From an uncultured Alphaproteobacteria bacterium (GTDB lineage: Bacteria > Pseudomonadota > Alphaproteobacteria > Micropepsales > Micropepsaceae): DNA of 54,347 bases. Numbering within the stretch: position 1 is the stretch's first letter; the number at the start of each line of letters is the position of its first letter. The position numbers were made by a program, and so were the translations under genes. Shown here piece by piece: positions 8,035 through 45,179 of the stretch. The notes beneath the pieces were generated by a model. That model was not told where the DNA came from, did not search any database, and was given only the letters and a program-made list of their open reading frames with translations. The stretch spans positions 1 to 54,347 of the forward strand of contig CAIOFO010000027.1 in the NCBI GenBank assembly GCA_903857685.1, written 5' to 3'.

Positions 8035-8080
8035 GCTGCGTTCGCCTGCGCGGGAGTCAAGTTCTGAACAGGCGCGCTAC

Positions 8081-8157
8081 CCTTCGCTTGCGCTCCGGGC
8101 GTTCGTCGCTCGCAACAGTCCACTGGACTGTTGCGTTCGCCTGCGGCGAACCGCTCC
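8081..8157. repeat. Palindromic repeat, family A copy 1
   Basis: Left arm CCTTCGCTTGCGCTCCGGGC, then GTTCGTCGCT, then a perfect hairpin AACAGTCCACTGGACTGTT at 8114-8132, then a right arm ending CCGCTCC. It ends four bases from the bactofilin stop codon. Close relatives are at 25251-25325 and 36756-36834. The hairpin could act as a transcription terminator or mRNA 3' protector. Confidence 0.75.
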
Positions 8158-8160
8158 GAA

Positions 8161-8685
8161 CTACTCAGCCGGTGACGGCATCATCGGCGTCAGGCCGGAC
8201 AGGCCGGTGCGCGGGCTCTCGACCGGCTGCGGGGCGCTGGACGCCGGCGCGCCCTGCAGCGGCAGGGTGCGGGACTCTTCGCCCAGCGGATTGTCGGAAT
8301 GGCGGCAATTGCCTTCGAAGAAGGCGCCCGCTTCCACCGCGAAGGCTTCGTGCAGAATATCGCCCTCGACATGGCTGGTGGCGGACAGCTGCACCTTGCG
8401 GGCGCGGATGCGGCCGATTACCCGGCCGCGCACGGTAATGTCCTCGGCCAGGATCTCGCCATGGATTTCCGCCTTCTCGCCGATCACCAGCCCGACGCTG
8501 CGGACATCGCCATCGACAACGCCATCAATCTGGATATCGCCATTGGACACCAGCGTACCGGTGACGATCAGGTCGGCGCTGATGATTGAGGGGGCGGTGG
8601 CGCGCGACGGGCGCTTGGGCGGCGGCACGGGGGCCGCGGCCAGGCTGGGCATCGGGGCAATGGGATCCTTGGCTTTAGAGAACAT
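8161..8685 (-). CDS. Bactofilin (polymer-forming cytoskeletal protein)
   Basis: Nucleotide-free cytoskeletal protein that polymerises at the inner face of the membrane and localises wall enzymes. The product has 174 residues: a Pro/Ala/Lys-rich N-tail (1-32), a right-handed beta-helix core at about 33-130 with repeated turns such as DIQIDGVVDGDVRS and GEKAEIHGEILAEDITVRG, and a Pro-rich C-tail. The ATG at 8685 overlaps the 3' end of the M23 peptidase gene by 11 bases, so the two are translationally linked. Bactofilin/M23 pairs are known to shape cell curvature or stalks in other Proteobacteria; the same role here is inference. Confidence 0.9.
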   Translation of the reverse strand: MFSKAKDPIAPMPSLAAAPVPPPKRPSRATAPSIISADLIVTGTLVSNGDIQIDGVVDGDVRSVGLVIGEKAEIHGEILAEDITVRGRVIGRIRARKVQLSATSHVEGDILHEAFAVEAGAFFEGNCRHSDNPLGEESRTLPLQGAPASSAPQPVESPRTGLSGLTPMMPSPAE

Positions 8686-22772: not shown

Positions 22773-24016
22773 CGGCACAGGTAAAAATCGTTCCGGGTTT
22801 CGATGCCGCCAAGGCGCGGGCCGATTTCCCCATCCTGTCGCGCCAGGTGCATGGCAAGCCACTGGTCTATCTCGACAGCGGCGCCTCGGCCCAGAAGCCG
22901 CGTGTGGTGCTGGATGCGATGAACGAATTCGCCCGTACCAACTACGCCAATGTCCATCGCGGCGTGCATTATCTGTCGGGCGCCGCCACCGATGCCTATG
23001 AAGCCGCCCGCCGCACCGTGCAGAAATTCGTGAACGCCGCCCGCGAAGACGAAATCGTCTTCACCAAGGGCGGCACCGAGGCCATCAACCTGGTGTCCTA
23101 TTCCTTCCTCGCCCCCGCCATCCATCCGGGCGACGAGATTGTGCTTTCGGTGATGGAGCATCATTCCAACATCGTGCCCTGGCATTTCCTGCGCGAACGC
23201 CAGGGCGCGGTGCTGCGCTGGGTGGATGTGCGCGACGATGGCAGCCTCGATATCGAGGCGCTGGACGCCGCCATCACGCCCAAAACCAAACTGATCGCCA
23301 TCACCCATATGTCCAATGTCCTGGGCACGGTGACGCCGCTGGCTGAGATCGTCGCCCGCGCCCATGCCAAGGGGGTGCCGGTGCTGGCCGATGGAGCGCA
23401 AGGCGCCGTGCACGAAATCGTCGATGTGCAGGCGCTGGATATCGATTTCTATGCCCTGACCGGCCACAAGCTTTATGGCCCCACCGGCATCGGCGCGCTT
23501 TACGCCAAGAGGAAGCATCTGAGGGCGATGCGCCCGTTCAACGGCGGCGGCGAAATGATCCGCGAAGTCACCCGTGATATCGTCACCTATGCCGATCCGC
23601 CGGCGCGGTTCGAGGCGGGCACCCCGCCGATCATCGAGGCGGTGGGCCTGGCGGCGGCGATGGATTACCTCAGCGGCTTCGACCGCGCCGCCGTCCGGGC
23701 GCATGAGCATGACCTTTATGCCTATGCCCGCCAGGCGGTTGGCGAATTGAATTGGGTTCGGGTGATCGGCGACGCGCCGGGCAAGGGCGCGATACTTTCT
23801 TTTGAGGCGGAGGGGATGCATGCCCACGATGTCGCCACCATATTGGACAGGGAAGGCGTGGCGGTGCGGGCCGGGCATCACTGCGCCCAGGTCCTGATGG
23901 AGCGGTTCGGCGTGGCTTCCACCACCCGCGCCAGTTTCGGCTTGTACAACAACCGCTCCGATGTGGACACGCTGCTGGCGGGTCTCACCAAGGCGCGGGA
24001 GATTTTGGGATCGTGA
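22769..24016 (+). CDS. sufS: Cysteine desulfurase SufS
   Basis: Group II PLP desulfurase that hands persulfide to SufU. The product has 415 residues. The PLP lysine is in YALTGHKLYGPTGIGALY and the catalytic Cys in RAGHHCAQVLMERF. The N-terminal VYLDSGASAQKPRVVLDAM and NVHRGVHYLS are typical. The start ATG overlaps the sufD stop (ATGA). Confidence 0.96.
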   Translation: MTAQVKIVPGFDAAKARADFPILSRQVHGKPLVYLDSGASAQKPRVVLDAMNEFARTNYANVHRGVHYLSGAATDAYEAARRTVQKFVNAAREDEIVFTKGGTEAINLVSYSFLAPAIHPGDEIVLSVMEHHSNIVPWHFLRERQGAVLRWVDVRDDGSLDIEALDAAITPKTKLIAITHMSNVLGTVTPLAEIVARAHAKGVPVLADGAQGAVHEIVDVQALDIDFYALTGHKLYGPTGIGALYAKRKHLRAMRPFNGGGEMIREVTRDIVTYADPPARFEAGTPPIIEAVGLAAAMDYLSGFDRAAVRAHEHDLYAYARQAVGELNWVRVIGDAPGKGAILSFEAEGMHAHDVATILDREGVAVRAGHHCAQVLMERFGVASTTRASFGLYNNRSDVDTLLAGLTKAREILGS

Positions 24017-24483
24017 TGGATCATTCGCTTCGGGAACTTTACCAGGAAGTCATCCTGGATCATTCGCGCCATCCCCGGCATTTCGGGGTGCTGGAGAACG
24101 CCACCCACAAGGCGGAGGGCTACAATCCGCTGTGCGGCGACAAGGTCCATGTCATGCTGGTGCTGGACAAGGACGGCCGCGTCGCCGACATCAGGTTCAC
24201 CGGCAAGGGCTGCGCCATCAGCCAGGCCTCTGCCTCGATGATGACCGAGATGCTGGCGGGCCGCACTTTGGCCGAAGCGCAGAAGCTTATGGACGGCTTC
24301 ATCCATCTGGTGAAGGGCGAGGAAGCTCCGGGCCTGTCCGCCGACGACCGCGAACATCTGGATGTCATGGCGGGCCTGTCGGAATTTCCCATGCGGGTGA
24401 AATGCGCCACCCTGGCCTGGCACACATTTTCCAATGCCATTGAAGAGGGCGCCATTGCCGCCGCCGAGGGGGCCGCATCATGA
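24016..24483 (+). CDS. sufU: NifU-like sulfur transfer protein SufU
   Basis: Zinc protein that accepts sulfur from SufS. The product has 155 residues from ATG 24016 (GTG 24013 would add one residue). The Zn ligands are visible in NPLCGDKVHV (Cys, Asp), GKGCAISQASASMM (Cys), and MRVKCATLAWHTF (Cys). LYQEVILDHSRHPRHFG is the family N-terminus. It overlaps sufS and sufT at its ends. Confidence 0.93.
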   Translation: MDHSLRELYQEVILDHSRHPRHFGVLENATHKAEGYNPLCGDKVHVMLVLDKDGRVADIRFTGKGCAISQASASMMTEMLAGRTLAEAQKLMDGFIHLVKGEEAPGLSADDREHLDVMAGLSEFPMRVKCATLAWHTFSNAIEEGAIAAAEGAAS

Positions 24484-24842
24484 ATGAACAGGCCCTCAAG
24501 ACCGAGATTGCCTCTTCGGCGCTGTCGCCGGCCGAGCTGGACGATTTCACCACCAAGCTGGTCATCGCCCTCAAGACCGTGTTCGACCCGGAAATCCCGG
24601 TGGACATTTACGAACTCGGGCTTATCTACAAGGTGGATGTCGCGGACAACAAGGATGTCACGGTGGACATGACCCTGACCGCCCCCAACTGCCCGGTGGC
24701 CGGCGAAATGCCCGGCATGGTCAAGAGCGCCGTGGAAACGGTGGAGGGCGTCGGCGCCGTGACGGTGAACATGACCTTCGATCCGCCCTGGACGCCCGAC
24801 CGCATGAGCGAAGAAGCCAAACTTGAATTGAACATGTTCTGA
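24480..24842 (+). CDS. sufT: SUF maturation protein SufT (DUF59/MIP18 family)
   Basis: A 120-residue DUF59 protein thought to help deliver Fe-S clusters to target proteins. VFDPEIPVDIYELGLIYKV and TLTAPNCPVAGEMPGMV (with the conserved Cys) are diagnostic, and it ends WTPDRMSEEAKLELNMF. The start ATG overlaps the sufU stop (ATGA). The TGA overlaps the sufA ATG (TGATG). Confidence 0.94.
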   Translation: MNEQALKTEIASSALSPAELDDFTTKLVIALKTVFDPEIPVDIYELGLIYKVDVADNKDVTVDMTLTAPNCPVAGEMPGMVKSAVETVEGVGAVTVNMTFDPPWTPDRMSEEAKLELNMF

Positions 24843-25225
24843 TGGACAAGCAGATTCCAACCCCGCGCCGCAGGGAGCGCCCCAAGCCGTTCCGCCTGAC
24901 CGATGCGGCGGCGCTCCGCCTGAACGAGATCATGCGCGAAGCGGAAGGCAGATATCTGGGCGTGCGGGTCGGCGTCACCAATGGCGGCTGCGCCGGCATG
25001 GCCTATACGATGAATTACGCCGAAACCACCGATCCCCTGGACGAAGTGATGGAAGACCGGGGGGTGAAGATCTTCATCGCGCCCAAGGCCATCCTGTTCC
25101 TGATCGGCACCGAACTGGATTTCGAAACCACCAAGCTGGGGTCGCGCTTTACGTTCAAGAATCCGAACCAGACGGCAGCGTGTGGATGTGGGGAGTCGGT
25201 TTCAATAACACCGGCCTCCGCCTGA
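24842..25225 (+). CDS. sufA: A-type Fe-S carrier SufA (HesB/IscA family) with replaced 3' end
   Basis: Carries assembled clusters to apoproteins. The product has 127 residues with the three cluster cysteines Cys50 (TNGGCAGMAY), Cys114 and Cys116 (AACGCGES), so it looks functional. The last ~20 codons use bases unlike the rest of the operon (TGT GGA TGT GGG, TCA ATA ACA). A second copy of the same C-terminal peptide, with native codon use, lies at 25327-25395 and overlaps the start of the next gene. The present 3' end is therefore probably foreign and the native one displaced. Confidence 0.93.
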   Translation: MDKQIPTPRRRERPKPFRLTDAAALRLNEIMREAEGRYLGVRVGVTNGGCAGMAYTMNYAETTDPLDEVMEDRGVKIFIAPKAILFLIGTELDFETTKLGSRFTFKNPNQTAACGCGESVSITPASA

Positions 25226-25326
25226 TGTCCCGTCTGATCGGATTCCCGGCCCTTCGCCCTCGCTTCGGGCGTTCGTCGCTTTCGCAGGTCCACTGGACCT
25301 GCTCACGCGCTATGCGCGCCGCTCCT
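25226..25326. mobile_element. Remnant or mini-element inserted at the 3' end of sufA
   Basis: 101 bp with no gene between two coding copies of the sufA C-terminus. Most of it is a family A palindromic repeat (25251-25325). The 8-base word AACCAGAC occurs in both flanking copies (25166-25173 and 25333-25340), 167 bp apart, and may mark the exchange site. It could be the leftover of a larger integrated element or a small non-autonomous element. Evidence is structural only. Confidence 0.55.
25251..25325. repeat. Palindromic repeat, family A copy 2
   Basis: Same layout as copies at 8081 and 36756: CCTTCGCCCTCGCTTCGGGC, GTTCGTCGCTT, a perfect hairpin GCAGGTCCACTGGACCTGC at 25284-25302, and a right arm ending CGCTCCTC. 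The hairpin stem differs from copy 1 by paired changes. It separates sufA from the tfoX-like gene and may terminate or stabilise the operon mRNA. Confidence 0.75.
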
Positions 25327-25395
25327 CACCCCAACCAGACCGCGGCCTGCGGCTGCGGTGAAAGCGTTTCCATCACGCCCGCCGCCGGTAACTAA
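25327..25395 (+). pseudogene. Displaced native 3' end of sufA
   Basis: Twenty-three codons reading PNQTAACGCGESVSITPA then AGN and TAA. The first 18 residues are identical to the C-terminus of intact sufA, yet nearly every third codon position differs. Codon use here (GCG GCC TGC GGC TGC GGT) fits the operon. Its TAA overlaps the ATG of the next gene (TAATG), continuing the overlap pattern of the operon. It has no start of its own. Confidence 0.8.
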
Positions 25396-25805
25396 TGGCC
25401 CCCAAGGCCGATCCCCACCGTTTCGATGACCTTTTCGCCGAATTCGGCCGGATTGAATTGCGCCGCATGTTCGGCGGCGAGGGGATTTATGCGAACGACA
25501 CCATGTTCGGGCTGGTGGTGGACGACCGCATCTATTTCAAGACCGACGACGCGACGCGCGTCGCCTATGTCGCCGAGCACTGCGATCCCTTCACCTATAT
25601 GAAGAAGGGCAAGCGCACCTCTTTGTCCTATTTCGCCATTCCCGAGCGGCTATATGACGAGCCGGAGGAGTTGGCGGCGTGGGCCGGTAAGGCGTTTGGT
25701 GTTGCAAAAACCAAGCAGGCGGGCGCAAGGAAAAGCAAGACGCGGGCGCATGCGGCTGCGCTGGGAACGCCGAAGAAACCGCCCCGGCCGTCAAGAAAGA
25801 ATTGA
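25395..25805 (+). CDS. TfoX N-terminal domain protein
   Basis: A 136-residue protein with a TfoX_N domain at about residues 5-100 (FAEFGRIELRRMFGGEGIYA; LVVDDRIYFKTDD; YMKKGKRTSLSYFAIPERL). TfoX in other bacteria is linked to competence control, but small stand-alone TfoX_N proteins are of unknown role. The C-terminus is Lys/Arg-rich. ATG 25395 overlaps the displaced sufA stop, so the gene was originally coupled to the SUF operon and is now separated from functional sufA by about 170 bp. Confidence 0.85.
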   Translation: MAPKADPHRFDDLFAEFGRIELRRMFGGEGIYANDTMFGLVVDDRIYFKTDDATRVAYVAEHCDPFTYMKKGKRTSLSYFAIPERLYDEPEELAAWAGKAFGVAKTKQAGARKSKTRAHAAALGTPKKPPRPSRKN

Positions 25806-25812
25806 TGCGGCG

Positions 25813-26511
25813 TCAGCAGGCCGCCGCCAACGGCGCGGCGCAGGCGATGCGCGTCATCTGGGCCAGGCTGCGGACCTTGAGCTTGCGGCGGATATTTCTG
25901 CGATGAATCTCGATGGTGCGGGGTGAAATGCCCAGGGTAAAGGCCGCGTCCTTGCTGGTGCGGCCGGCAACCAGTTCGTCGAAAACCCGGTGTTCACGCG
26001 GACTGAGCAAAGCCAGCTGCTGCTGCGCCCATGTTTCGCCCGCCCTTGTATTGTCGGCATCCAGGCTGATCGCCACCGCCCGCCTCACCGCGCCCAGGAT
26101 CTCCGCGACATCGAATGGCTTTTCCAGCACATCCAGCGCTCCGCCTCGGAAGCCGCGCAGCACCATCGCCAGATTGCCATGGCCGGTAATGATGATCACC
26201 GGCAGGTCGATTTTGCGCGTGGCCAGCTCGGCCTGCAATGCCAGCCCGTCCATCCCCGGCATGCGCATGTCGGTAATCAGGCATTTGGCGTCCGGGCTCA
26301 GGCCGGCGAGGCAATCCTCGGCCGACATATAGGCCTTGACCCGGTATCCCGAAACTTCCAGCAGGTCCTGCAGGCAATTGCGAACCCCGTTATTGTCATC
26401 AACCACCAAAACCAGCGCGGGATCGGTCATGAGGGGCTGTGCGTGGCTATCGGCGCCGCGCGGCAGGGCCTTGGCGGGAATCCTGGCAGGTAATGCAACA
26501 GGCATGGGCAT
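25813..26511 (-). CDS. FixJ-like response regulator (receiver + LuxR HTH)
   Basis: Two-component transcription factor. The product has 232 residues: an N-terminal extension (1-27), a receiver domain with LVVDDN, phospho-acceptor Asp81 in LITDMRMPGMDGL and the Lys in LEKPFDV, and a C-terminal LuxR-type HTH (LSPREHRVFDELVAG; SPRTIEIHRRNIRRKL). ATG 26511 has AAGAGG upstream. The internal ATG 26430 matches the usual receiver start but lacks a ribosome site. No sensor kinase lies beside it, so the partner is unknown. It ends eight bases past the convergent tfoX-like gene. Confidence 0.9.
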   Translation of the reverse strand: MPMPVALPARIPAKALPRGADSHAQPLMTDPALVLVVDDNNGVRNCLQDLLEVSGYRVKAYMSAEDCLAGLSPDAKCLITDMRMPGMDGLALQAELATRKIDLPVIIITGHGNLAMVLRGFRGGALDVLEKPFDVAEILGAVRRAVAISLDADNTRAGETWAQQQLALLSPREHRVFDELVAGRTSKDAAFTLGISPRTIEIHRRNIRRKLKVRSLAQMTRIACAAPLAAAC

Positions 26512-31390: not shown

Positions 31391-32755
31391 TCAGGCGGCC
31401 GGAAACAGGATCGCGACCTTGAGGCCGGGATGGTTGTCTGCGGCATCAATTTCCGCCGCATGCAGGTCGGCGACGGCGGCCACGATGCTCAGGCCCAGGC
31501 CGTTGCCGGCCGTCGTCCGGCTGGTTTCCAGGCGATAGAATCGCTGGAATATGCGCTTGCGCTCGCCTTCCGGCACGCCCGGTCCGTCATCCGACACATC
31601 CAGCTCGACGCCGCCGCGCGCCTTGCGCAGGCAGACGGTGATGCTGGAATTGGCGGGCGTGTGGGTTGAGGCGTTTTCCAGCAGATTGGCGAGGGACAGC
31701 GTTATCAGTTCCTGGTCGCCGTTGATCCACAGATCGGGCTCGATCTGATGGCTCAGGATGTGCCCATCGTCCTCGAAGGCCGGGCCGAATGTCTCGCAGA
31801 TGTCGGCGACCAGGTTGCTGAGGCAAACATGCTGAAAGCCGCTGCGCCGGCTGCCGCTTTCGATCTGCGCCACGCGCAGGATGGCGCTGAACATGCCCAG
31901 AATATCGTCCAGTTCGCCCACGCTTTTCTCGATCACCTCCTGGCATTCTGCCGGCGTAAGCGCCCGGAGCCGGGCGGTGTCGAGCTGGCGGCGCAGGCGG
32001 CCCAGCGGCGTGCGCAGATCGTGCGCGATGTCGTTGGACAGATGCTTCAGGCTTTCGGTGAGGCTGTTGGTGCGGTCGAGCATGCGGTTCAGCGTCGCCG
32101 CCAGCCGGTCGAGATCGTCGGGGGCACTGCGCCGGGGCACGCGCCGCCTGATGTCGCCTTCGATGATCGCTTCCAGGGTCCTGGTGATGGCTTCGATGCG
32201 CTTGAGGAACTCGGAGCTGAGCAGCACGCCGCCCGCCACCGCCAGGGTGAGGGAAAGCAGGAACACCCAGGCAAAGGTTTTCAGGATCACGGTGCCGTAA
32301 TTGGCCACTTCGCCCCAGTCATCGCCAACCAGCAGGCACAATCCCTTGGGCAGCGGCGTGATATAGACGCCAAGCTGCTCCTGCTGGCCGGGGGCCTCGT
32401 CGCCGTCCGGCGGCCCTTTCAGCGTGGTCCAGCCCCGGGTGCAGGTCACTATCGGAAGATCGCCGAACAGATGATGGCCGGCATTGTCGTAGAGCGTGAA
32501 ATCCAGGCCATCGGCCAGCCTTCCGCGCTGGCGGTCGGAAATGGCGCGGATCACCTGGCGCACGCCGCCCGAATTGTAATCGGCTTCCAGGGCGGCGGAT
32601 TCGGAAAAAATACGGGCGTGGAATTCGCGGCTGAGTTCCCGTGTGACCGAAAAATAGGTCACCACCGCCAGCAGCCCCACGGAAAGCGCGAAGAGCCCGG
32701 CATAGGCGGCCGTCAGCCTGAAGCTGGCCGAATTAAGCGTCTGCGTTAGGCGCAC
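31391..32755 (-). CDS. Membrane sensor histidine kinase with HAMP domain
   Basis: Sensor of a two-component system, 454 residues. TM1 is about residues 13-35, the periplasmic sensor domain 36-155, TM2 158-180, then HAMP, HisKA with phospho-acceptor His245 in AHDLRTPLGRLR, and HATPase with DDGPGVPE and GNGLGLSIV. GTG 32755 overlaps the regulator gene by 23 bases, so the pair is co-translated. It lies 115 bp upstream of the thioredoxin/apbE set on the same strand; control of that set is possible. The stimulus is unknown. Confidence 0.92.
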   Translation of the reverse strand: MRLTQTLNSASFRLTAAYAGLFALSVGLLAVVTYFSVTRELSREFHARIFSESAALEADYNSGGVRQVIRAISDRQRGRLADGLDFTLYDNAGHHLFGDLPIVTCTRGWTTLKGPPDGDEAPGQQEQLGVYITPLPKGLCLLVGDDWGEVANYGTVILKTFAWVFLLSLTLAVAGGVLLSSEFLKRIEAITRTLEAIIEGDIRRRVPRRSAPDDLDRLAATLNRMLDRTNSLTESLKHLSNDIAHDLRTPLGRLRRQLDTARLRALTPAECQEVIEKSVGELDDILGMFSAILRVAQIESGSRRSGFQHVCLSNLVADICETFGPAFEDDGHILSHQIEPDLWINGDQELITLSLANLLENASTHTPANSSITVCLRKARGGVELDVSDDGPGVPEGERKRIFQRFYRLETSRTTAGNGLGLSIVAAVADLHAAEIDAADNHPGLKVAILFPAA

Positions 32756-33407
32756 GAACTGTGTATCCCGATCCGCGCACCGTGTGGATCAGGTCGCTTC
32801 CGACCTTGGACCTGAGGCGGCTCATATGGGTTTCGACGATATGGGTCTTGGGATTGAAATGGAAATTCCACACCCCGGCCAGAAGCATGGTGCGGGTGAT
32901 GACCTGGTCCTGGTGCAGCAGGAGATATTCCAGCAGGGCGAATTCACGCGGCTGCAGCGTAATCGCCGCGCCGGCGCGCGTCACCTTGCGCCGGATGCGG
33001 TCCAGCTCCAGGTCGCCCAGCTTGAGGAGCTGCGGTTCCTGCGACAAGGGCGGACGGCGCAGCAGTGCATTGACCCGCGCCAGCAATTCGGCAAAGGCAA
33101 AAGGCTTGGGCAGGTAGTCGTCGGCGCCGGCATTCAGGCCCTCGACGCGATCATCCAGGCCGCCCAAGTTGCTGAGAATGAGAACCGGGCAATGCTTGCC
33201 CTGGTCACGCAGGGTCTTGACCAGCGTCAGGCCGTCAAGTCCTGGCAGCATTCGGTCCACGATCATCAGATCGTAATTGCCCCCACTGGCCATCTCCAGC
33301 CCGCTGTCGCCGCGGCCGGCATATTCGACATGATGACCGTTTTCGCGCAGGCCCTTCTCGACATAGGCGGCGAGCGCGTCTTCGTCTTCGACCAGCAGAA
33401 TATTCAT
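32733..33407 (-). CDS. OmpR-family response regulator
   Basis: A 224-residue DNA-binding regulator paired with the overlapping kinase. The receiver has LLVEDED, phospho-acceptor Asp51 in IVDRMLPGLDGL, and Lys in LPKPFAF. The C-terminal winged helix contains REFALLEYLLLHQDQVITR and VETHMSRLRSKV, and ends TVRGSGYTVRAPN. It is likely the first gene of the minus-strand unit. Its target genes are not shown by the sequence. Confidence 0.94.
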   Translation of the reverse strand: MNILLVEDEDALAAYVEKGLRENGHHVEYAGRGDSGLEMASGGNYDLMIVDRMLPGLDGLTLVKTLRDQGKHCPVLILSNLGGLDDRVEGLNAGADDYLPKPFAFAELLARVNALLRRPPLSQEPQLLKLGDLELDRIRRKVTRAGAAITLQPREFALLEYLLLHQDQVITRTMLLAGVWNFHFNPKTHIVETHMSRLRSKVGSDLIHTVRGSGYTVRAPNADA

Positions 33408-36599: not shown

Positions 36600-36755
36600 G
36601 TTATCGTCCCCACTGGCCGCCAAAACCACGCGCGGCAGGGGCAAGTGTCACGCCGTACGCGGTAAAAAAGCGTTAAGTTCCGTCGCAATGAGTACGGTTA
36701 TCGCGGGGTTTTTTGTACCAAAGGGCCCGGAAAAGGCGGCCCAGCGGTGCCCGGC

Positions 36756-36834
36756 CCTTCGCTTGCGCTCCGGGCGTTCGTCGCTTGAAATGGTTCACCG
36801 AACCATTTCATTGGCCTACGGCCAAACGCTCCTC
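36756..36834. repeat. Palindromic repeat, family A copy 3
   Basis: CCTTCGCTTGCGCTCCGGGC as in copy 1, then GTTCGTCGCTTG, hairpin AATGGTTCACCGAACCATT at 36789-36807, and a second small hairpin TGGCC/GGCCA. It ends at the helicase stop codon (36833-36835). It may terminate helicase mRNA. Confidence 0.75.
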
Positions 36835-38662
36835 ACTCCTTGGACTCCAGCTTCTTCACCGGCACCGGCCGGAAGAGGAAGGCGGGAAGCTGGCTCTTGT
36901 CCACCGCTTCGGGCTGGGCGGCGCGTTCATTATGCTGGCGCTGGCTGCCGCCGCGCCCATGTTTATCGTGGTGGGGCTTTTCGTGATGCGACTGTTCCGC
37001 ACGAGGCTTGTCCTGACGCGGAGTGTCCTGACGCGGATTGTCCTGGCGCGGTTGATCGTTGCGGGGCCTTTGTTCGTGGCGCGGCCGCTGTTCCTGGCGC
37101 GGCTGTTCCTGTCTGGGTGCTTCGGGGCGGGGCGCATCGGCGATCACCGGTGAGGGCGCGCTGGTCGCAACTGCCGCTTCGCTGACCTGGCTGGGCTCGA
37201 TGCCGGCGACCTGGTCGTGGAATTTGCCGCCGGGCGGGCGGCGGTCGCGGTGCCGCTTGTCCTTGTCGAGGGAGCCGCCGCGTCCACCACTGCCGCCGCG
37301 GCCATGTTCGCCGCGCGGCGCCTTGCGCTCTTCGCGCACCTCGATATCCATCATTTCGCGGCGGGCCAGCTTGTTGCCGGTGATCTTCTCGATCGCCTCG
37401 ATATATTTGCCGTCGCGCGACGAGGCCAGCATGAAGGCCGCCCCGCTTCTGCCGGCGCGGCCGGTGCGGCCGATGCGGTGGACATAATCATCGGCATGGA
37501 TCGGCACGTCGAAATTGAAGACATGGCTGACGGCGGGAACGTCGAGCCCGCGCGCCGCGACATCGCTGGCGATCAGGATCTTGAGGTCGTTGGCGCGGAA
37601 GCGGTCCAGCGTCTTGGTGCGCAGCGACTGGTCCAGGTCACCGTGAATCGGGGCGGCGTCGAAGCCATGCTTGACCAGCGACTTGGCCACGACATCGACA
37701 TCGCGCTTTCTGTTGCAGAAGACGATGGCGTTTTGCAGGGTCGGCTCGGCTTCGCGGATCAGGCGGCGCAGGGCTTCGCGCTTGGCCCAGTCATTGGCCG
37801 GGATCATCACCACTTCCTGGGTGATATTGCTGGCGGTGGTGGCGGGACGCGAGACTTCCACGCGCACGGCATTGTGCAGGAACTGGTCGGTGAGGCGCTG
37901 GATTTCCGGCGGCATGGTCGCGGAATAGAAAAGCGTCTGGCGGGTAAAGGGCAACAGCTTGCAGATTTTTTCCACGTCGGGAATGAAGCCCATGTCCAGC
38001 ATGCGGTCGGCTTCGTCAATCACCAGGATATTGACCTGGGACAGCAGGATGCGGCCGCGGTCGAAATGGTCCATCAGGCGGCCGGGGGTGGCGATCAGAA
38101 CGTCCACACCGCGGTCGAGCTTCTTGGTCTGCTCGTCCATCGAGGTGCCGCCGATCAGCAGCGCTTGGGAGAGCTTGGAATATTTGCTGTATTTGTCGAA
38201 GCTTTCCGACACCTGGTCGGCCAGTTCGCGGGTCGGTTCCAGCACCAGGGCGCGGGGCATGCGGGCCTTGGAGCGGCCGCGGCTGAGCATCTCGATCATC
38301 GGCAAGGTGAAGCTGGCGGTCTTGCCGGTGCCGGTCTGGGCGATGCCGATCAGGTCGCGCCGCTGCAGCACCACGGGAATGCCCTGGGCCTGGATGGGGG
38401 TGGGGGTGGTGTAGCCGCTATCCACCACGGCCTTGAGGATTTCCGGGGAAAGGCCCAGGCCGTCGAAACCGCCTGCTGCCACAGTCGAAGGGCCCTCCGC
38501 CAATGCCGTCAAAGGGGCCGCGTTATCAATAACTTCGCTGGTTCCGGCTTGCGCGCCGGAGATCGTCACTTGGGTCGTAGCACGCTCCTGAAAAGGGGCG
38601 CTGATGCCGCGCCCAAGTCTGGCAAAGCCCGTATTGGCCGCCGACTCTTGCTGCCTGAGCAT
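36833..38662 (-). CDS. DEAD-box RNA helicase with disordered C-tail
   Basis: Unwinds RNA duplexes in ribosome assembly or mRNA turnover. About 609 residues from ATG 38662; GTG 38569 (578 residues) is an alternative, and neither has a strong ribosome site. Helicase motifs are the Q-motif TPTPIQAQGIPVVL, Walker A AQTGTGKT, DEAD in VIDEADRMLDMG, SAT in YSATMPP, and HRIGRTGRAGRSG. The last ~150 residues are a charged, disordered tail with a repeated PRQ(D/E)(N/T/K/Q) unit, then GRGGSQRQH, as in RNA-binding tails. Confidence 0.92.
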   Translation of the reverse strand: MLRQQESAANTGFARLGRGISAPFQERATTQVTISGAQAGTSEVIDNAAPLTALAEGPSTVAAGGFDGLGLSPEILKAVVDSGYTTPTPIQAQGIPVVLQRRDLIGIAQTGTGKTASFTLPMIEMLSRGRSKARMPRALVLEPTRELADQVSESFDKYSKYSKLSQALLIGGTSMDEQTKKLDRGVDVLIATPGRLMDHFDRGRILLSQVNILVIDEADRMLDMGFIPDVEKICKLLPFTRQTLFYSATMPPEIQRLTDQFLHNAVRVEVSRPATTASNITQEVVMIPANDWAKREALRRLIREAEPTLQNAIVFCNRKRDVDVVAKSLVKHGFDAAPIHGDLDQSLRTKTLDRFRANDLKILIASDVAARGLDVPAVSHVFNFDVPIHADDYVHRIGRTGRAGRSGAAFMLASSRDGKYIEAIEKITGNKLARREMMDIEVREERKAPRGEHGRGGSGGRGGSLDKDKRHRDRRPPGGKFHDQVAGIEPSQVSEAAVATSAPSPVIADAPRPEAPRQEQPRQEQRPRHEQRPRNDQPRQDNPRQDTPRQDKPRAEQSHHEKPHHDKHGRGGSQRQHNERAAQPEAVDKSQLPAFLFRPVPVKKLESKE

Positions 38663-44727: not shown

Positions 44728-45179
44728 CTTCGGCTGCCCGGGTGAGCCGGGAACAGTCGAAAGTCCAGTGGACCTTCGGTCCCGGCGAACGCCGCAGCGT
44801 CGCGCGTTCGGCGCGGCGCGAGGCCGGGAATGCGAAACAAAAAGGGCGGGTCTTTCGACCGTGAGCGGCGGCGCACGAAGTGCGTGAGCGGGTCCGGTGG
44901 GTCCGTAGCGACAGCGTATGGACGCGAAAGCTGTAAACGCCGCGAGCAAGCGAGTGGCGCCTGGCAAGCAGATTGAAACAATAAGGCCAGGCTGACGCCC
45001 GGGGATATAGCGATGGCCGGAAAGGTGGACACTTTTTGCCGCCATCAAAATTGAATGGCACCTCGGACCAGAAACAGGTTCGGGGGTGTATTCATTTTGG
45101 TAATTGGGGCTGTTAAGTCGATGTCCGCTTCTGACCCAAAGCTGGCATTGGAGCGAACCGTTCTTGCGCGGCGCGTGAT
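44728..45179. other. Non-coding interval with repeat remnants
   Basis: About 450 bp without a convincing gene. Near 44740-44800 is a degenerate family A palindrome with core AAGTCCAGTGGACCTT (44761-44776). At 45123-45149 lies a copy of a third repeat, GTCCGCTTCTGACCCAAAGC. The stretch 44830-45010 has no coding pattern. This marks the border between core and accessory regions. Confidence 0.6.

Follow-up and report, generated by a model that had tools for sequence, protein, structure and literature searches.

The window, a stretch of 54,347 nucleotides from the genome of an uncultured alphaproteobacterium, carries an A-type Fe–S carrier gene, sufA (24842–25225, + strand), and a tfoX-like gene (25395–25805, +), open reading frames that match the Pfam families Fe-S_biosyn and TfoX_N, respectively. 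The sufA frame is intact and uses a recoded end (T1, 25163–25220, +), recognized from a direct repeat, codon scores and a change-point, with odd codons starting at about 25172–25175. Its stop codon is followed by a spacer (25226–25244, +) and by one copy of a genus-wide dispersed repeat with three hairpins and CTCAC at its right end (25245–25329, +). At this right end begins a displaced, native-like sufA end with its own stop (T2, 25330–25395, +), assigned by repeat, codon and relatives comparison. The sufA–tfoX junction is thus occupied by a REP/MITE-like repeat and a second, diverged sufA end.

The working sufA protein ends in NPNQTAACGCGESVSITPASA and the downstream copy encodes HPNQTAACGCGESVSITPAAGN, each followed by a stop codon; the 18 residues PNQTAACGCGESVSITPA are common to both, and in the downstream copy they are encoded at 25330–25383. 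At the DNA level the copies form a direct repeat of 58 nt (25163–25220 and 25330–25387) with 71% identity and a spacing of 167 nt. Over the 18 shared codons there are 16 nucleotide differences, 14 of them in third positions; 14 codons differ and no residue is changed, compared to 8.3 differing codons expected for two native draws (p 0.0035). The doubling of the end with an identical peptide and mainly third-position changes had been claimed in the original prediction and is confirmed, as is the overlap of the downstream TAA (25393–25395) with the tfoX ATG, which share base 25395. The non-coding stretch that separates the upstream stop from the second copy, given there as 101 bp, measures 104 bp (25226–25329).

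An open frame of 56 codons (25225–25395, +) also spans the junction, with an ATG overlapping the sufA stop and a stop overlapping the tfoX start. It matched no Pfam family and may be due to chance or may keep translational coupling. In addition, an imperfect inverted repeat pairs 25160–25175 (+) with 25230–25244 (−); it was spotted post hoc, and 3 of 2000 shuffles reached it.

Codon use and relatives of the two sufA ends

The codon score of the upstream sufA end (z −6.75) lies under all 20,000 synonymous resamplings, whereas that of the downstream end is typical (z −0.12; p 0.41, synonymous resampling). The best change-point places the switch at the last 16 codons, exceeding all 5,000 resamplings, and the body of the gene is normal. 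The contrast between foreign-like upstream and native downstream codons, on which the original prediction was built, is therefore borne out. After removal of poorly scoring open frames, a step that also preceded the counts of gene ends beside the repeat, four other frames among 108 real open frames match the terminal gain of sufA, two of the four across most of their length, and z ≤ −3 was obtained for 20 of 141 background gene ends. Because of these cases odd terminal codons are not diagnostic by themselves. The window contains a further instance at 32733–32800 (−), where the last 13 codons of a gene are rare, with no repeat copy or direct duplicate nearby. This gene, which we take to be response-regulator-like, may run into the beginning of its downstream neighbour, presumably kinase-like.

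Two explanations of the sequence around T1 were rejected. The odd codons could serve a hairpin, yet equal folding was reached by 481 of 1000 native synonymous encodings and by 82 of 1000 uniform ones. Counter to this rejection, the strand 25160–25335 folds better than shuffles (z −3.25), and only those 3 of 2000 shuffles reach the arms of the inverted repeat. The spacer could be a decayed tfoX start, but an alignment test gave no significant similarity (1995/5000; 585/5000 without the ATG).

For comparison, sufA loci were taken from 29 of the 56 other genomes in which sufA was matched. The related loci compared number 33 and represent 32 distinct ends, since L010 and L062 share one contig. A single sufA end was found at all 33 loci. 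Of the distinct ends, 29 are closer to the downstream copy and three (L010, L035 and L064) to the upstream one, and the codon score of the upstream end is lower than those of all 33 related ends, the next being −3.52. Judged from its proximity to 29 of 32 relatives, the single end per related locus, and its normal codons, it is the downstream copy that most likely represents the native sufA end. It had been predicted that relatives would show one end, like the downstream copy, joined to tfoX. The number of ends and mostly their type are as expected, but a tfoX-like motif occurs within 500 bp past the sufA end in only 15 of the 33 loci. The general proposal that DNA entered the sufA end, so that a differently coded copy now terminates the working gene and a native-like end lies downstream, agrees with these data.

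When 289 genomes from the class were searched, no other end-only second sufA copy was seen among the matches listed. A degenerate, frameshifted sufA end is present on a separate contig of genome G004 (G004:C105, L060, 231–320), with no match to the repeat in the 4 kb around it, and the sufA contig of the same genome terminates within the sufA end. Of 50,697 phage records, 9 had matches, all weak (best E 3e-3) and to ErpA genes (ErpA/IscA-like), and viral contigs gave no match to the sufA end. Matches of any kind were found in 69 plasmid records. No larger element carrying the same sufA end was detected in the phage records, the viral contigs or the class matches listed.

The dispersed repeat and duplicated flanks at other loci

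Most of the insert at sufA is a single copy of a non-coding repeat of about 87 bp (25245–25329; nhmmer envelope 25246–25332). A search with the region located copies of its middle elsewhere in the same genome. The repeat was matched in 14 of 61 genomes (E ≤ 1e-6), all belonging to one genus; a second variant had matches in 13 of 41 genomes (E ≤ 1e-8). The consensus fold of 35 full copies has three hairpins supported by compensatory changes, for example at pair 39–57, which changes from A–T (20) to G–C (13), and at pair 61–75, which changes from T–A (20) to C–G (12). By reading of the consensus, CTCAC (GTGAG on the opposite strand) is the conserved right end and CGTC is internal. No Rfam family was found up to E 1 across 24000–26500. 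Further copies in the window lie at 8076–8169 (+), 36751–36839 (+) and 44858–44961 (−), with a weak match at 44736–44815. The proposed search of genomes for the DNA at 25226–25326 did retrieve related DNA, in the form of a dispersed non-coding repeat; that the gap holds an insert between the two ends was correctly seen, and that this insert is mostly a dispersed repeat could not be known from the letters of the window alone.

No parent element of the repeat was found in a non-exhaustive search, and no transposase is linked to it. Y1 transposases of the RAYT type were considered as the mover and rejected, because their presence does not track the repeat: among genomes G000–G036 they occur in 4 of 16 repeat-bearing genomes (G005, G008, G013, G015) and in 8 of the 21 where the repeat was not matched. 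The window's own genome has none. In G008 (C226; L194/L327) about 1.1 kb separates a Y1 gene from a repeat copy whose flanks are weakly duplicated. The window's genome has 10 tyrosine-recombinase matches, and the repeat was not found in these 10 loci over the up to about 1.5 kb examined per side.

Sequence around repeat copies was obtained from 80 + 40 stretches, part of the listed places. Removal of duplicates and of copies with flanks below 80 nt reduced 210 repeat matches to 173 usable copies. Six of an initial set of 78 flanked copies had flank duplications clearly over the null; in the full set 10 of the 173 copies were flagged and 163 were not. Eight of the 10 score higher, at the protein or the DNA level, than every one of the 865 mismatched-pair controls. 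The remaining two are L156 at carB, which is under the control maximum but backed by homology, and L194, which is weak. In the initial set a seventh locus, L044, scored 49 where the null reached at most 48; it is a neighbouring repeat copy and was left out of the count. A mirrored duplication test, in which windows overlap so that orientation is unproven, placed the same six loci on top, with 9 of 144 above threshold.

In all, nine loci share the layout, spread over five genomes of the genus, a group of freshwater bacteria. These are the sufA end and a gene start (L006) in the window's genome, G000; the pgi end (L106) in G013; in G024, a terminator (L138) and a gene start (L101); the ends of carB (L156), the Hsp33 gene (L300) and another gene (L137) in G015; and, at the same place as L137, the end of a homologous gene (L288) in G014. 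The nine loci thus represent eight different targets, including gene starts and a terminator. Pfam matches are HSP33, PGI and, for carB, an MGS-like domain; the names carB, rne, greA, mutL, DUF486 and epimerase used for genes at the loci are presumptive assignments of ours. The working gene copy lies left of the repeat, and the stranded copy starts where the repeat ends on the right, or close to it. Of the 10 flagged cases, 7 have a T2 alignment that begins 2–3 nt inside the modelled right end. L106 and L288 match the model only in part, and their sequence has T2 directly after CTCAC; for L194 the alignment begins 5 nt beyond the modelled right end. T1 alignments stop 6–53 nt before the left end of the repeat.

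Gene ends left of the repeat are enriched in odd codons (7 of 19 with z ≤ −3 versus the 20 of 141 in the background, Fisher p 0.02). Right of the repeat it is 3 of 9, and left and right differ with p 0.35 (0.13 in another run). A general skewing of neighbouring gene ends by the repeat was rejected, as the effect vanishes without the six duplicated loci (15 left ends, p 0.25). At L201 (G000:C59) only 9 nt separate the end of a gene, presumably acyl-CoA-ligase-like, from a repeat copy on its right, and the last 33 codons of this gene are odd; no stranded copy was detected there.

Possible origins of the doubled ends

The pattern of the layout is solid. Across six coding cases, 44 of the codon differences between T1 and T2 are synonymous and 5 are non-synonymous, distributed as 14:0 in sufA, 6:1 in carB, 6:1 in pgi, 8:2 in the Hsp33 gene, 5:0 in the L288 gene end and 5:1 in the L101 gene start, where an identical core of 20 nt precedes the mostly synonymous divergence. 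Decay of a local duplicate would alter many residues, so with this ratio local duplication followed by decay is probably not the origin of these six pairs. The two copies probably diverged at a time when each was a gene end under protein selection, and the simplest setting for this is two different genomes. There are two exceptions, L006 with 1 synonymous versus 4 non-synonymous differences, and L137 with copies identical over 31 of 31 nt, which are what local duplication would give.

In view of the above, the explanation we tentatively prefer is that a unit consisting of a diverged gene end, a spacer and the repeat was acquired by recombination with incoming, diverged homologous DNA. The donor DNA would already carry the repeat beside a diverged version of the end of that gene. 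A first join, through homology within the gene, would bring the diverged end in frame and leave the protein intact, and a second, end-on join at the right end of the repeat would strand the native end downstream. This would be analogous to homology-facilitated illegitimate recombination, which takes place during transformation. In the Hsp33 gene, where the codon use of the working end is as odd as that of sufA (z −7.0), the recoded stretch covers the last 20 codons by the best change-point compared to 13 codons in the stranded copy, which fits two independent joins. The varying spacers fit donor intergenic DNA. T2 is nearer to the relatives in sufA (29/32), in carB (10 of 11, with one tie) and mildly in pgi (8 of 15, with four nearer to T1 and three ties). 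The DNA of the carB end was compared separately in 11 parsed loci of 21, the one with the doubled end included.

Several observations argue against recombination. None of the 33 scored related sufA ends resembles the donor, and a locus in the donor state, with gene end, spacer and repeat and no T2, was identified for none of these genes among the loci examined. The mechanism gives no reason why the second join should be at the end of the repeat, and the identity at L137, the 1:4 ratio at L006 and a sign of drift in carB do not fit. The DNA CTTGAAGTCGC is common to 8 of 10 relatives' carB ends, is kept in T2 and has gone from T1, which suggests that T1 drifted after insertion; such drift may contribute at carB. 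In most relatives (L220–L234) the carB end is almost invariant as DNA, with CTTGAAGTCGC in those 8 of 10, and this conservation suggests a hidden signal, such as the promoter of the next gene.

A second and somewhat unlikely explanation is that the repeat is a transposable element producing target duplications of tens of bp, the copies of which later drift apart. The surviving insertions would be those that leave both the gene end on the left and the upstream region of the next gene on the right intact. Long target duplication accounts better than recombination for L137, with its identical 31-nt duplicates, and for L006, with few and mostly non-synonymous differences. It would also be consistent with duplicates that fall at gene starts and a terminator as well as at gene ends, and with a right carB copy that retains the DNA conserved in relatives. 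Long, variable duplications of 8–514 bp are on record for IS1549/IS1634 (PMC2266710). However, the 44:5 ratio is unlike neutral decay, as are the 16 nucleotide changes without a residue change in sufA, and 163 of the 173 repeat copies are unflagged. Furthermore, T1 stops 6–53 nt short of the repeat, the sufA spacer is unlike the tfoX start, and there is no transposase linked to the repeat.

A mobile miniature element that restores gene ends, with the repeat inserting close to a gene end along with a spare, separately evolving version of that end, is unlikely. Such insertions would be harmless in sufA, carB, pgi and the Hsp33 gene.

Still less probable is a tiny integrative element of the phage 21 kind, containing a recoded end and an attachment core and moved by a recombinase in trans, or the remnant of a larger element. 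The recoded end with its unchanged peptide, the near-clean insertion in sufA and the short identical junction cores (8 nt in sufA, 20 nt in L101) would be in agreement with this, as would the same-place insertions in homologous genes (G014 L288, G015 L137) and the tyrosine-recombinase matches in the window's genome. On the other hand, there are eight targets in nine loci, gene starts and a terminator among them, 163 of 173 copies are unflagged, the repeat was not found in the 10 recombinase loci examined, viral contigs showed no such end, and phages gave just the weak matches of the ErpA/IscA type. The original prediction of a scar left by a phage or island that had attached at sufA finds no support, given these weak matches, the lack of matches in viral contigs and the same layout elsewhere. 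Its aside that the unit may itself be a tiny element comes closer.

Although most genomes compared are drafts, that of the window consists of 160 contigs, repeats break assemblies and a G004 contig breaks inside the sufA end, an assembly artefact in which a strain mixture is joined at the repeat is highly improbable, because the layout recurs in other genomes, including on G015 contigs of 1.27 Mb (L137), 0.78 Mb (L156) and 0.77 Mb (L300), and in 7 of the 10 flagged cases the model position at which the stranded copy begins agrees to within one base.

Relation to known systems

The layout indicates that non-coding repeats can settle in tight operons and between overlapping genes without killing them. 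The stranded native end is a fossil that orients each insertion, and because the working and stranded copies differ in codons, the sequence of events can be read in part. If driven by an enzyme, this would be a new, gene-sparing mode of DNA insertion. No described parallel was recognized in the part of the literature covered by our search, which is no proof of absence in print.

Integrative elements such as phage 21, which enters icd, bring a replacement gene end that encodes the same peptide with other codons, and displace the native end downstream. The recoded replacement end and displaced native end of sufA are similar. Different from the phage 21 case, the 167-bp sufA insert has no cargo and no integrase gene, for which there is no room. 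Also different are the eight unlike target sites, including gene starts, and the dispersed repeat at the junction.

MITEs and REPs are described as short, non-coding, hairpin-forming, dispersed sequences that are often near gene ends (compare PMC3733652). The repeat found here is likewise short, non-coding, dispersed, palindromic or hairpin-forming, and close to gene ends. It differs in its size of about 87 bp with three hairpins, in the CTCAC right end and in having some copies between duplicated gene termini. Unlike REPs with a RAYT, it is not tracked by Y1 transposases (4/16 versus 8/21 genomes). REPs bear a GTAG or CGTC tag at one end; of these, CGTC is present inside the consensus of the repeat. 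MITEs have a fixed target duplication and a parent transposase; the duplications seen here are of various lengths and occur in the 10 flagged copies of 173. For IS1634 and IS1549, long and variable direct repeats flank the insertions (PMC2266710). The identical long duplicates at L137 resemble these, whereas the other cases are diverged: the copies differ mostly synonymously, most copies of the repeat lack a detected duplication and no transposase is known.

Homology-facilitated illegitimate recombination combines one homologous and one end-on junction and yields a partial duplication with foreign DNA in between, which resembles the arrangement here. The difference is that here the proposed end-on junction recurs at the end of one repeat family.
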